64,000 bases of DNA from an uncultured Coriobacteriaceae bacterium (GCA_944322305.1 CALUOP010000001.1:1-64000); one strand, 5' to 3'; positions 10,042 to 59,519 are shown, numbered from the stretch's first letter. A program made the numbers and translations. The notes: generated by a model from the letters alone, not told the origin.

Positions 10042-10167
10042 AAAATGGATGTCGTTTCGCGCGGGCGCGCCGAGTATGCCGGCCGGGTGCCAGTCGATCT
10101 ACCTGCGCCTTTCGCAAGAGACGGGGCGCCTCTACTCGAGACGCCCCTCTAAAACCACATCCATTTT
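10042..10167. repeat. 11-bp inverted repeat 104 bp apart
   Basis: AAAATGGATGT (10042-10052) and its exact complement ACATCCATTTT (10157-10167) face each other across 104 bp. The function is unknown. Confidence 0.45.
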
Positions 10168-54836: not shown

Positions 54837-55976
54837 TTAGTAGTCCTGCGCGGCGGGGCTCTCCATCCAGTCGCTCACGAAGTCGGCGTAGGTGCCGTCG
54901 ATGATGGCCTGGCGCGCACGGCGCATGAGGTCGAGCAGGTAGTAGATGTTGTGCATCGAGAGCAGGATGCCGCCGAGCATCTCTTTCACCGTCACCATGT
55001 GGCGGATGTGCGCGCGGCTGTAGCCGCCGGTGCAGACCGGGCAGGTGCACTTCTCGTCGATGGGCCGCGGATCGTGTGCGAAGCGGGCGTTGCGGAAGTT
55101 CAGGCGCCCCTCGCTCGAGAAAGCCGTGCCCATGCGGCCGGTGCGCGTGGGCAGCACGCAGTCGAACATGTCGATGCCGCAGGCAACGCCGCGCACGAGC
55201 GTGGTGGGGTTGCCCACGCCCATGAGGTAGCGGGGCTTGGTGCGCGGCATGTACTCGGCGGCGAGCGGCTCGAGCGTCTCGAACATCACCTCGTGGCTCT
55301 CGCCCACCGAGTAGCCGCCGATGCCGTAGCCCGGGAAGTCGCCGATCTCCTCCAGATGCTTGAGCGAGCGCAGGCGCAGGTCCAGGTGCATACCGCCCTG
55401 CACGATGCCGAAGAGCGCCTGGTCGGGACGGGTGTGGGCCGCGTAGCAGCGCTCGGCCCAGCGGCTGGAGAGCTCGGTGGACTTCTCCACGGCGCTGCGC
55501 TCGACGGGGTAGCCGATGCACTGGTCCAGTTGCATGCAGATGTCCGAGCCCAGCTTCTGCGCGATGGCCATGTTGTCCTCGGGCGTCCAGAACACATGGG
55601 AGCCGTCATAGTCGGTAGCGATGAAGCGCACGCCCTCGTCGGTGAGCTTCACGGCGTCGGAGTGGCTGAACACCTGGAAGCCGCCCGAGTCGGTGAGGAT
55701 GGGACCGTGCCAGTTCATGAAGTCATGCAGGCCGCCCATCTCTTCCACGAGATCGGCGCCGGGACGCATGGCCAGGTGGTACGTGTTGGACAGCACGATC
55801 TGAGCGCCCAGGTCTTTAACCGCCTCCCACGGGATGCCCTTCACCGTGGCACGCGTACCCACCGGCATGAAGATGGGCGTCTCGATGTCGCCATGCGGCG
55901 TGTGCAGCACGCCGGCGCGCGCGTGCGTTTTGGGATCTTCGGCAACGATGTCGTACGTGAAGAGCTTCTGGTCCAT
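54837..55976 (-). CDS. tgt: Queuine tRNA-ribosyltransferase
   Basis: 379-aa TIM-barrel enzyme inserting preQ1 into tRNA position 34. ILTDSGGFQVFS (catalytic Asp), GGYSVGE, FDCVLPTRTGR (nucleophile Asp) and the zinc motif CTCPVC with later His are present. The ATG at 55976 has AAGGAT upstream; homology begins there. The next queuosine gene, queA, is 5 kb to the right on the same strand; preQ1 synthesis genes are not seen. Confidence 0.97.
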   Translation of the reverse strand: MDQKLFTYDIVAEDPKTHARAGVLHTPHGDIETPIFMPVGTRATVKGIPWEAVKDLGAQIVLSNTYHLAMRPGADLVEEMGGLHDFMNWHGPILTDSGGFQVFSHSDAVKLTDEGVRFIATDYDGSHVFWTPEDNMAIAQKLGSDICMQLDQCIGYPVERSAVEKSTELSSRWAERCYAAHTRPDQALFGIVQGGMHLDLRLRSLKHLEEIGDFPGYGIGGYSVGESHEVMFETLEPLAAEYMPRTKPRYLMGVGNPTTLVRGVACGIDMFDCVLPTRTGRMGTAFSSEGRLNFRNARFAHDPRPIDEKCTCPVCTGGYSRAHIRHMVTVKEMLGGILLSMHNIYYLLDLMRRARQAIIDGTYADFVSDWMESPAAQDY

Positions 55977-56428
55977 GGGGATCCTTGTCTGTTGTCTGCG
56001 CAGAGCGCGCATTATATGCCGATACGCCGGTCCGGGCGTTTCCGCACGGAGCGCCTGGGAGTCAGCGCTCACGAGCGCGCGGAGCCCGCCCAGAACGCGC
56101 GCATTGCCCCGCGCGGCGCTTGTAAGCTGCCGCCATTCTACAATGCGCCCGCCGGCGCGGGCGTCGCACCGCACCCCTGCGCGGAATCTATGGAAACGAA
56201 GGCCCGCCCGCAGCGATTTGCTGCAAACCTCCGCGTTAACGTGCGCAAGGCAACGCACCTCGAAAGTACAGAAGAGGCCAGCACCAGAAAAATACCTGGT
56301 CAGAGCGCTGACCTCATACCGGTGTACTCAGTGCCCCCAGAATGAAGCGCACGTTAACTCAGAGGTTTGCATGCGCGCGCCGCTCAGCCCCGCAACCCGC
56401 GCCGCAGACGCAGCCCAGCACCCCGTTC
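55977..56428. other. Intergenic region between tgt and radical SAM gene
   Basis: 452 bp holding the tgt promoter region (not resolved) and a MITE-like element at 56222-56371. Nothing else coding is visible. Confidence 0.6.
56222..56371. mobile_element. MITE-like element, copy 1
   Basis: 150 bp bounded by 25-bp terminal inverted repeats (56222-56246 and 56347-56371, 23/25 matching) that begin TGCAAACCTC and contain GTTAACGTGC. It is flanked on both sides by TGC, a candidate 3-bp target duplication. The inner ~100 bp encodes nothing. A second copy is at 59195. Confidence 0.75.
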
Positions 56429-57754
56429 TTACGCCGGGGTGCCGTCGCCGAAGAGCAGCTCGCGCTCGGAGCCGGAAAGCGCAGCGCGCGCCTGGTCGCG
56501 CAGCTCGTTCAGGCCCGACAGGAACTGGCGCTGCATCACCAGGGCGTAGTAGCGCCCGCGCGTGGTGAGCGTGAGCTCCTCGGAGTTGTCGGTGGCGAAG
56601 GCCCCGTTGGCGCGCATGAACGCCATCTCAACAGGCAGGCCGCGCTCAACCGACACGCCGAAGTCGCGCTTGAAGCGCTGCTTGTCCAGCCGCAGGGAGT
56701 ACAGGTCCTGCATGAAGCGGTAGCGCATGAGGTCGCGCTTGCTCATCTTGGTCTTGCCCATGAGCGACATCCGCCCACCCTCGATAGCCTCGTTGTACTC
56801 GGCGAGCGAGAACGTGTTCACGTAGATGGTGCCGTTCAGGTGCGTCACCGCGCCCGACCCGATGGCCGGGTACTCCTCGTAGGTCACGCCGAACTCGTCC
56901 ACCGGCACCTCGCCGCAGGCGTGCAGGTCCTGCCCCGCCCGGTTGAAGGTCCACACCGTGCGGCGCTCAAAGGGCGCGTTCGGACCCTCGGCCAGCGTTG
57001 CGTCAAGCATCTTGTAGTACTCATACTCGCGAGCGTAGGCAGGCTGCCCCAGCGTGTCGAGCATCTTCTTGGTGGTGGCGCGCGAGAAGTACAGCGGGCT
57101 GAACGTGGTCTGCTGGCAGCCGCACTGCTTGATGAGCTCCACGTCGCGCATGAGGACGTCCTCGGTCTGCGAGGGGAAGTTGAAGATCATGTCGACGTTC
57201 AGGATGTCGAAGTACGGAGCGGCCTCGCCGATGCGCTCGAAGATCTCCTCGCCCGAGCCGTACTTCTCGTAGCGGTCCATCTGGCGCAGCAAGTCGTTGT
57301 TGAAGCTCTGCACGCCCACCGACAGGCGCTGCACGCGGCCCTTCAGCTTTTCCAGGTAAGGGCGGGTGAGATGGTTGGGGTTGGTCTCGCTCGAGACCTC
57401 CTTGATGGAGAAGGTGTCGCGTGCCAGGTCGAGCGTTTCGCACAGCTCGTCGATCATGATGGTGGGCGTGCCGCCGCCGCAGTAGATGCTCTCGAAGTCG
57501 TAGCCCAAGTCTTTGAGCATGAGCATCTCGCGGCGCAGGTTCTTGAAGTACGGCCGCGCGATCTCCTCGCGGAAGGGGTAGCGGTTGAAGCTGCAGTAGG
57601 GGCATAGCCGCTGGCAAAAGGGAATGTGCATGTAGAGCATGTAGTGCATGCCGGGCTTGGGGCCGGGCAGCGCCCACTCGTGCGCGGGCTCCATCTTGAG
57701 CTCGTGCTTGGTCATGGTTTTGATGACGCTCGTGAGCATACGTTCCGAAAGCAC
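56429..57754 (-). CDS. HemN-like radical SAM protein
   Basis: 441-aa coproporphyrinogen-III-oxidase-family radical SAM protein. The cluster motif is CQRLCPYC (CX3CX2C), followed by YCGGGTPT, SSETNPNHL and RLSVGVQSFN. Homologues include HemN, HemW and the haem-utilising ChuW/HutW group, so the exact reaction is uncertain. GTG at 57754 is chosen for GAGGAGG 5 bp upstream; the frame is open 27 bp further and an ATG lies five codons in. A TATAAT (minus, 57814-57819) may be its -10. Confidence 0.82.
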   Translation of the reverse strand: MLSERMLTSVIKTMTKHELKMEPAHEWALPGPKPGMHYMLYMHIPFCQRLCPYCSFNRYPFREEIARPYFKNLRREMLMLKDLGYDFESIYCGGGTPTIMIDELCETLDLARDTFSIKEVSSETNPNHLTRPYLEKLKGRVQRLSVGVQSFNNDLLRQMDRYEKYGSGEEIFERIGEAAPYFDILNVDMIFNFPSQTEDVLMRDVELIKQCGCQQTTFSPLYFSRATTKKMLDTLGQPAYAREYEYYKMLDATLAEGPNAPFERRTVWTFNRAGQDLHACGEVPVDEFGVTYEEYPAIGSGAVTHLNGTIYVNTFSLAEYNEAIEGGRMSLMGKTKMSKRDLMRYRFMQDLYSLRLDKQRFKRDFGVSVERGLPVEMAFMRANGAFATDNSEELTLTTRGRYYALVMQRQFLSGLNELRDQARAALSGSERELLFGDGTPA

Positions 57755-57951
57755 GCTAGCCTCCTCATCTGGCCGTTGCACCTCAACGGGACTCGCCTTC
57801 CCGCAAACAATTGATTATAAGCCTCCGCGCGAGGTGCGAACCCGACAACGAGCGCTTCCCGCCCCGCAACCATGGACGGAAAGGGCAAACGTCCCGCGCG
57901 GGCGCGGCTGCGCGCCGCGGCGAAGGGCGCGGGACCGACAAAGGAGGGCAC

Positions 57952-59127
57952 ATGGTGATTCTCTACGGAACGTCGGCATGGCAGTACTACCAAACACCCC
58001 CGGTCATCCGGGATGCCGAGCTGCCGAAAGGCGGCGCGCTCGCATCGCAACCGGAGGGAGCGGGAGCCCCCGAGCCGGCCCGGTCGTCCCGCCGCACGGC
58101 ATCGGAGGCAACGCGCATCCTGTCCTCGCGGCTCGCGCAGAACCTCAAAGGCGTCGCGACGCCCGTGCACTGCATGGTGGACGAGCCGTCGACGTTTCGC
58201 GCAAACGGCATCGTGCGGTACCACCACATGCGGCGCTTCGTCCCAAAAGAGGAGCTCGTCCCTTTGGGCGGAGACCTTTACGTGACGTCTCCCGAGCTCA
58301 CGCTCGTCCACCTGGCCATGGGACGGGACGCGGCGCGCCTTGCGCTTCTTATCTATGAGGCGTGCGGCACCTACGCCACCCCCACCCCTACGGGAGCGGC
58401 GCGCTTCGTCTTCAACCAGCTGGTTGGCAACGGCTACCTTGACCACGTGCGCGACCTGCCCGCGCTGAGAGAGTTCGAGGACAGCGCCGGACGCCGCGTC
58501 GCGTTGGTTGACGCATATGGGGAGGCGCTCCCCTGGAAACCCGCGCTCAACGCGCGCAGAAAGCCGACCGGCCTTTGGAGGCGGCCACCGCTCACCTCGG
58601 TCGAGCGCCTTTCCAAGCTGGCCGATCGCGTGCGGGACACGCGCGGCCTGCCCGCGCTCAAACGCGCGCTCGGCGTCACCCGCGACGGCGCGGCCTCGCC
58701 CTTGGAAGCGCGCGTTCTCATGCTCTGCTGCTCCGACCCCTACCTCGGCGGAGAGGGTTGGCCGTGGCCGGCGATCAATCGCCGCATCGACTTTCCCCGC
58801 CCGCTCAAAACGCTTGCGGGAACCAGCTACTGCATCGCCGACCTGCTGTGGGACGCGCAGAGGGTTGATCTGGAGGTCAACGGCGAGGATTACCACACAG
58901 ACGAGTACGGCTTCGTACGCAGCAACGGGCGCAGGGCCGCGCTCGAGGCGATGGGCTACACGGTGCTGGATATCGACTATGCGCAGGCCGCCAACCTCAA
59001 AAGCCTCGACATCATGCTGGACTCGTTTTCCCAAAAGCTCGGCATCCGGCCGAAGCGACGCACGGCCGCGTTCCTCCAACGCAAAAAGAAGCTCCACGCC
59101 GTGTTGTTCCCGTATGGGGAGCGGTAA
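57952..59127 (+). CDS. Putative DUF559-type endonuclease-like protein
   Basis: 391-aa protein. The N-terminal half has an AbiEi-like look (VRYHHMRRFV, LYVTSPELTLVHLAM). The C-terminal part resembles the PD-(D/E)XK DUF559 fold: an Asp in IADLLWD, then RVDLEVNGEDYHTDEYGF, a conserved Arg, and ALEAMGYTVLDIDY. DUF559 proteins are Vsr-related nuclease-like proteins. The ATG at 57952 follows AAGGAGG. It diverges from the radical SAM gene and both are bracketed by MITE-like elements. Function is unproven. Confidence 0.65.
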   Translation: MVILYGTSAWQYYQTPPVIRDAELPKGGALASQPEGAGAPEPARSSRRTASEATRILSSRLAQNLKGVATPVHCMVDEPSTFRANGIVRYHHMRRFVPKEELVPLGGDLYVTSPELTLVHLAMGRDAARLALLIYEACGTYATPTPTGAARFVFNQLVGNGYLDHVRDLPALREFEDSAGRRVALVDAYGEALPWKPALNARRKPTGLWRRPPLTSVERLSKLADRVRDTRGLPALKRALGVTRDGAASPLEARVLMLCCSDPYLGGEGWPWPAINRRIDFPRPLKTLAGTSYCIADLLWDAQRVDLEVNGEDYHTDEYGFVRSNGRRAALEAMGYTVLDIDYAQAANLKSLDIMLDSFSQKLGIRPKRRTAAFLQRKKKLHAVLFPYGER

Positions 59128-59519
59128 CAGGCGGGCAAGGCGCGCGAAACAAAGCGGCTGCGCCTTCTGAGATCGTTCCCTCCATGCCCTGCGCTGCAAA
59201 CCTCGGAGTTAACGTGCACCACGAACAGGCATCCCAAGGATAACCCACGTCTTTCAGATGCAAAATGCCTGGTACGCACCCCGCCCAAACGTTGGCTCCC
59301 GGATGAGGCTCTCACCTTGTGCACGTTAACTCCGAGGTTTGCACGCGAGGCCCATTCCGTGGCACCGCACCACCGCGCGCCGCGATGCGCACGCGGAAGT
59401 CCGCCGCGCCTGCACGGCGACGGAGCGTCGCGCAGCGCAGCGAGATGAGGCAAACCACCGTGCCCGCACAGGTCAGCCGCGATGGCGCACAAGCATGCTG
59501 TGGACGGCTCCCCGCGGCA
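59128..59519. other. Intergenic region between DUF559-like gene and AKR
   Basis: 392 bp containing a MITE-like element (59195-59343). The remainder (59344-59519) is GC-rich without recognisable signals; the genes on both sides converge here. Confidence 0.6.
59195..59343. mobile_element. MITE-like element, copy 2
   Basis: 149 bp with perfect 25-bp terminal inverted repeats (59195-59219, 59319-59343), the same family as 56222-56371. Flanking CGC on both sides is a candidate 3-bp target duplication. Its interior is largely different from copy 1 apart from a short AAAATGCCTGGTA-like stretch. Confidence 0.8.

Follow-up and report, generated by a model that had tools for sequence, protein, structure and literature searches.

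A predicted Vsr-like-fold nuclease gene associated with a dispersed family of palindromic elements in Coriobacteriia

Introduction

The nuclease Vsr acts at CTWGG. The EDxHD homing endonuclease I-Bth0305I (PDB 3r3p) is described as dimerising on a target that, at nearly 60 bp, is unusually long (PMC3943268). Furthermore, AbiEi antitoxins bind to their own promoter at inverted repeats (PMC3985639). Repeat populations that reside in a genome together with a nuclease are represented by the REPtrons, in which TnpA(REP)/RAYT occurs with REP, BIME and REPIN repeats (PMC8266576).

In this study, a window of 64,000 nucleotides from an uncultured Coriobacteriaceae bacterium (GCA_944322305.1 CALUOP010000001.1:1-64000) was analysed. 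The source genome (G000) is a 2.35 Mb draft assembly of 15 contigs. The window carries a gene whose product is predicted to be a nuclease of Vsr-like fold with an AbiEi-like part, accompanied by palindromic elements with many dispersed copies. This system of a gene and dispersed repeats in gut Coriobacteria looks previously undescribed. A search of the open-access literature gave no paper on inverted repeats with DUF559, on Collinsella repeats or on MITEs in Coriobacteria, and neither the element nor the full protein is described by a family in Rfam, Pfam or NCBIfam. The newness is claimed for the gene-element pair; the mobility of the elements is inferred.

Results and Discussion

Elements in the window

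The sequence-only reading had described a pair of elements of 150 and 149 bp with inverted arms, and both its coordinates and its match counts were confirmed (Table 1). The arms were complementary at 23/25 positions in element 1 and at 25/25 in element 2. The arm pattern had four matches in the window, compared with none expected from dinucleotide shuffles of the window. Element 1 was located between a radical-SAM gene (56432-57739, minus strand) and a TGT gene (54840-55976, minus strand), and element 2 started 67 bp 3' of the nuclease stop codon. The neighbours of the nuclease gene were the TGT, radical-SAM and aldo/keto reductase genes; it had an element on its 3' side only, with element 1 lying beyond the radical-SAM gene. 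In addition, a copy resembling the third window element, with like flanks, was seen on contig C11 (L232).

Table 1. Positions of the elements and of the nuclease gene, counted from the first letter of the window
Feature	Position	Strand	Arm sequence	Basis or remark
Element 1	56222..56371	+		150 bp; solo copy
Element 1, left arm	56222..56246	+	TGCAAACCTCCGCGTTAACGTGCGC	inverted-repeat and arm-pattern search
Element 1, right arm	56347..56371	-		inverted-repeat and arm-pattern search
Element 1, central CCTGG (CWGG motif), at midpoint	56295..56299	+		sequence; motif statistics
Cognate nuclease gene, 391 aa	57952..59127	+		predicted AbiEi-like N-terminal part and EDxHD/Vsr-like C-terminal nuclease domain
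Element 2	59195..59343	+		149 bp; gene-flanking copy
Element 2, left arm	59195..59219	+	TGCAAACCTCGGAGTTAACGTGCAC	inverted-repeat search
Element 2, right arm, perfect complement	59319..59343	-		inverted-repeat search
Element 2, central CCTGG, at midpoint	59268..59272	+		sequence; motif count
Third window element, other arm family	10042..10167	-	AAAATGGATGTNGTTTT	belongs with the paralogous nuclease gene of contig C3 as its cognate

Copies in the source genome

A search of the genome with the element ends gave many further copies. Window-type arms were present in 13 copies in G000, all 148-150 bp long, and every clear window-type arm there was a member of such a pair. Among the relatives searched, the only matches to these arms were one in G003 and one in G049, the latter having 2 mismatches and looking like chance. 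The exact arm pattern had no match in the GTDB genomes and IMG/VR, partly since G000 may be left out there. Moreover, neither viral contigs nor plasmids matched the window-type arms, and the core pattern was absent from viral contigs.

The interiors had been described as largely different, which was true of the pair itself (arms 90% identical, core 39%). However, in 14 aligned copies, the cores were 40% identical on average, compared with 25% for shuffled cores that were not realigned. The conserved core blocks lay at the centre and at AGTAGAC. The 3-bp direct repeats noted at the flanks (TGC and CGC) were indeed present at the window pair, but they were not a property of the family, as only these 2 of the 13 copies had them. 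Direct repeats of 2, 4, 5 or 8 bp flanked none of the 13 copies, and no consistent target duplication was found among the copies in G000. The comparison with a relative showed that G003 was without both window loci, and element 1 was absent from the collinear region; however, the intergenic DNA there was not alignable, and no precise empty site was obtained. The outcome that would have told against the sequence-only reading, a lack of both further copies and any empty site in a relative, was not what was observed.

At L014 (G000:C2:33210-33358), a window-type element was in frame within a 623-aa ORF; in G003, the gene at this locus (C2a) had an unrelated 88-bp linker and no clean junction. At L031 (G000:C7:23684-23833), both arms were altered together, from TTAAAGTGCAC to TTATATTGCGG.

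Arms and core of the wider family

A covariance model built from the 25 arm pairs only was used to search 60 relatives, and related elements were detected in 38 of them, with tens per genome in several. The elements of the family were palindromic and about 120-150 bp long, with arms about 100 bp apart. The arms differed wholly between genomes, yet they were always self-complementary. Pairing was better between the two arms of one element than between arms of different elements (swap test, p = 5e-5). At a locus orthologous between G010 and G034, a stem block had changed with compensation (AGGGGA/TCCCCT versus ACGGTT/AACCGT). A directional core was common to the families, CCGAGTAGAC ... AAAANCCGCWGGTAGA ... 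GGTCTACTCGG, which spanned about 98 aligned columns and was almost free of gaps. The window-type cores in G000 were decayed relative to this shared core, with the centre kept. The motifs AGTAG...CTACT were found in the core across different arm families; together with the fixed spacing and the core CWGG, they contradict the earlier suggestion that the ends alone are recognised.

The elements were mostly intergenic. They were found 3' of genes as often as 5', in both core orientations, and also between convergent genes. In G004, near-identical copies (L111-L115) had flanks conserved for more than 45 bp beyond the arms, indicating a longer repeat unit there. The most distant homologs, from other families of the order (L254 in G038, L174 and L253 in G053), had larger elements of about 140-190 bp, which mostly kept CWGG near the centre. 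Palindromes of the types GGTTGGGGACGTGTTCC and GGGACAGG occurred near elements and some Y1 genes (L120, 1150-1200; L288, L289, L293 and L294) as an independent REP system. Integron attC sites were also considered and were rejected, as the GTTRRRY/RYYYAAC boxes were absent.

Association of the elements with the nuclease gene

Homologs of the window gene were found in 48/60 relatives, some matching the C-terminal half only, and their named carriers included Slackia equolifaciens, Collinsella intestinalis and Raoultibacter timonensis. In a de-duplicated gene set from Coriobacteriia, a hairpin element (arm score >=14) was located within 1.1 kb of 46/55 homologous genes, that is, beside 23/27 full-length and 23/28 C-terminal-only homologs; none was detected near the other 9 of the 55. 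In the controls, hairpins were found at 3/30 DUF559 genes elsewhere in the phylum, all three being unrelated inverted repeats, and at 2/22 background loci. The earlier statement that no transposase in the window matches the elements overlooks the gene beside element 2, which is not a classical transposase but whose homologs are mostly flanked by such elements (46/55). For 15 homologs, an element was present on both sides, and the arms were common to both in 14 of these. The G000 paralogs on C3 and C5, found by BLAST with the window, were each flanked on both sides with their own matching arms. In addition, one C-terminal-only homolog (L179, G001:C85) was situated amid at least seven overlapping inverted repeats (CTCCCAAGCCGGGACG...).

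Predicted fold of the nuclease

The window protein had no Pfam or NCBIfam assignment. Among 16 of its relatives compared with Pfam, half matched DUF559 weakly and one matched AbiEi_3. The residues E252, D297, E308, H315 and D317 were invariant, and all were present in the window protein. A profile match to I-Bth0305I (PDB 3r3p) was obtained at E = 0.004-0.006. When the C-terminal domain was modelled alone (pLDDT 74), the structural matches at the head of the list were 3hrl (DUF559-like, Z 9.8), 3r3p (Z 9.0) and Vsr (PDB 1cw0 and 1vsr, Z 7.9 and 7.0, respectively); Foldseek with the same model returned nothing at E <= 0.001. The N-terminal part matched the AbiEi antitoxin 6y8q at a modest Z of 5.7, and the full-length AlphaFold model was poor (pLDDT 62) and weak in the nuclease part. 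The model of the C-terminal domain predicts a nuclease of Vsr/EDxHD-type fold.

Cognate element sets and divergence of arms and protein

The dispersed copies carried the arms of the resident nuclease gene in five cases: two sets in G000 and one each in G007, G013 and G034. In the latter three genomes, the main dispersed arms were those beside the resident full-length gene. The sets in G000 comprised the 13 window-type copies and about 24 copies of the C3 type, which all measured 117-118 bp between fixed arm points. The C3 arm pattern had 43 occurrences in G000, and none of 59 relatives had more than one. In G007, a second arm family (GTCAACTCGAGCCGG...; TGTCAACTC...GAGTTGACA) was present at L092, L093, L102, L104, L107 and L109, and no nuclease gene was found beside its elements.

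Divergence of the arms followed that of the protein. Nuclease pairs with N-terminal identity of 80-96% had arms in common, and those with 60-75% had arms partly in common. Arm similarity fell as the proteins diverged (Mantel rho = 0.20, p = 0.002), and agreement was clear only where identity exceeded about 60%. The correlation was equally seen for the C-terminal part, and the N-terminal part was not singled out.

The central CWGG motif

Of 65 gene-flanking elements in a non-redundant set, 46 had CWGG, on one strand or the other, no more than 3 nt from the exact midpoint, compared with 18/390 shifted positions. The motif was also central in 23/24 C3-type copies and in 12/14 window-type copies, one of the 14 being the copy from G003. 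In 71 cores selected by PWM, C was found in 70/71, A or T in 70/71 (52 A, 18 T), GG in 69-71/71 and T in 70/71; as this set was chosen by the profile itself, the count of 46/65 is the independent test of CWGG.

Proposed role of the elements and alternative explanations

The elements are probably sites of the cognate nuclease, whose arms would be bound and whose centre would be cut, with the sets dispersed by the nuclease or maintained with it. The two window repeats would be 2 of the 13 copies in the set of the nuclease gene lying between them. The 25-bp arms would be bound lineage-specifically by the AbiEi-like N-terminal part, acting as a symmetric dimer, and the core of about 98 bp would set CWGG exactly half-way, where the Vsr/EDxHD-type domain may nick or cut. 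Constant geometry, a central motif and arm-protein matching would follow naturally from a dimer on the arms that cuts at the midpoint. After a central cut, copying might proceed through a hairpin intermediate, or else existing sites might undergo gene conversion or ends-out repair. The nuclease would spread the sets, or at the least persist together with them, in the manner of TnpA(REP)/RAYT and REPs, although the enzyme is an unrelated one. Furthermore, direct-repeat elements flanking a gene (L165) could collapse to a solo element, like long terminal repeats.

The elements could instead be operators. The AbiEi-like protein would then be a DNA-binding regulator that uses the arms to autoregulate its gene and to control dispersed ones, and its nuclease domain would be incidental. 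The AbiEi-like N-terminal part, the promoter binding of AbiEi antitoxins and the mostly intergenic position agree with this. Nevertheless, we regard it as unlikely, as the elements are as often 3' as 5' of genes, including 3' of the nuclease gene itself, occur in both core orientations and also lie between convergent genes. The AbiEi inverted repeats are 3 bp apart at 23-bp length (PMC3985639), compared with about 100 bp here, and a function as a nuclease is favoured by the conserved residues of the active site and by the CWGG at the centre. The sequence-only reading had taken the elements to be MITE-like. What stands of it is that the repeats form a dispersed, non-coding family whose ends are inverted; a 3-bp flanking repeat as a family trait and ends-only recognition do not stand. 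That they are ordinary MITEs, which as non-autonomous DNA transposons would depend on a DDE-type transposase from another locus, would account for the inverted ends, small size, dispersal and intergenic position, but it is improbable given the lack of a consistent target duplication, a length that stays within 2 bp across one arm family despite diverged cores, and a core conserved between families with unrelated arms. The longer autonomous element with the same ends that the reading expected was not seen in the draft assembly of G000, because each clear window-type arm belongs to a pair.

A family of structured RNA genes with long closing stems is slightly less probable still. Although every pair of arms keeps its self-complementarity and the two arms change together, as at the G010/G034 locus, covariation in the interiors was not above swapped controls (swap test, p = 0.10), and RNAalifold found no structure. 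The core is almost without insertions and deletions, unlike RNA loops; the orientation relative to genes is mixed, and a search of 4227 Rfam families gave no relevant match. Least of all do we expect REP-type repeats mobilised by the Y1/HUH transposase (RAYT) of the genome. One Y1_Tnp gene is present in G000 (C4:265091) and such genes occur in many relatives, and GTAG motifs lie within the core. However, 0/10 inspected Y1 genes adjoined such an element, some had their own different hairpin or GGGACAGG repeats, and G016, G021 and G023 carry elements without a Y1_Tnp match.

The association ties an uncharacterised nuclease family to intergenic repeats of common gut bacteria that number tens per genome and have lacked an explanation. 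A second, mechanistically different system of a nuclease plus a resident repeat population would make spread and persistence testable outside HUH enzymes. Moreover, a code of DNA recognition would emerge from the many protein-arm pairs that nature provides, and the enzymes would represent compact nucleases whose targets are very long.

Comparison with known systems

The elements are like MITEs in being small and dispersed with inverted ends; they differ in having no consistent duplication, no parent transposon seen, a fixed length and a conserved core. The protein resembles AbiEi and the actinobacterial AbiEi-DUF559 proteins in the fold match of its N-terminal part and in the weak DUF559 profile matches of half of its members. 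However, the 30 DUF559 genes elsewhere in the phylum were without flanking elements except for the 3 unrelated inverted repeats. Unlike AbiE toxin-antitoxin systems, in which AbiEi stands beside an AbiEii nucleotidyltransferase, no AbiEii partner adjoins the window gene.

The predicted nuclease fold is shared with Vsr, whose CTWGG is similar to the CWGG in the middle of the elements. The protein differs from Vsr in the extra AbiEi-like N-terminal part and in the embedding of the putative site in a palindromic element of about 150 bp. The EDxHD homing endonuclease is, together with the very-short-patch repair enzymes, the closest solved fold, and its catalytic residues are kept in the predicted model. 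Homing endonuclease genes interrupt a single target, whereas here elements with intact centres flank the gene, dozens of solo copies exist and there is no intron.

With REPtrons, the system has in common a nuclease gene with inverted palindromic repeats on its flanks and many dispersed cognate intergenic copies, a repeat sequence that is specific to the lineage and varies along with the protein, and the lack of clear target duplication. It is unlike them in its enzyme, which has a predicted Vsr/EDxHD fold and is not a HUH tyrosine enzyme. Its elements of 120-150 bp, with a core of about 98 bp, a central CWGG and GTAG inside the core, also differ from a palindrome of 20-50 nt preceded by GTAG, and the Y1 genes of the same genomes are without these elements (0/10). 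As in REPtrons, the dispersed repeats have the sequence of those flanking the gene (two sets in G000, and G007, G013 and G034). We would give an even chance to the wider proposal that sets of palindromic sites of about 150 bp are replicated or maintained in the host chromosome by a nuclease of Vsr/EDxHD fold whose DNA-binding part evolves fast. This would be a new class of dispersed selfish or domesticated element that is widespread in Coriobacteriia and has evolved independently as a counterpart to RAYT/REPIN.
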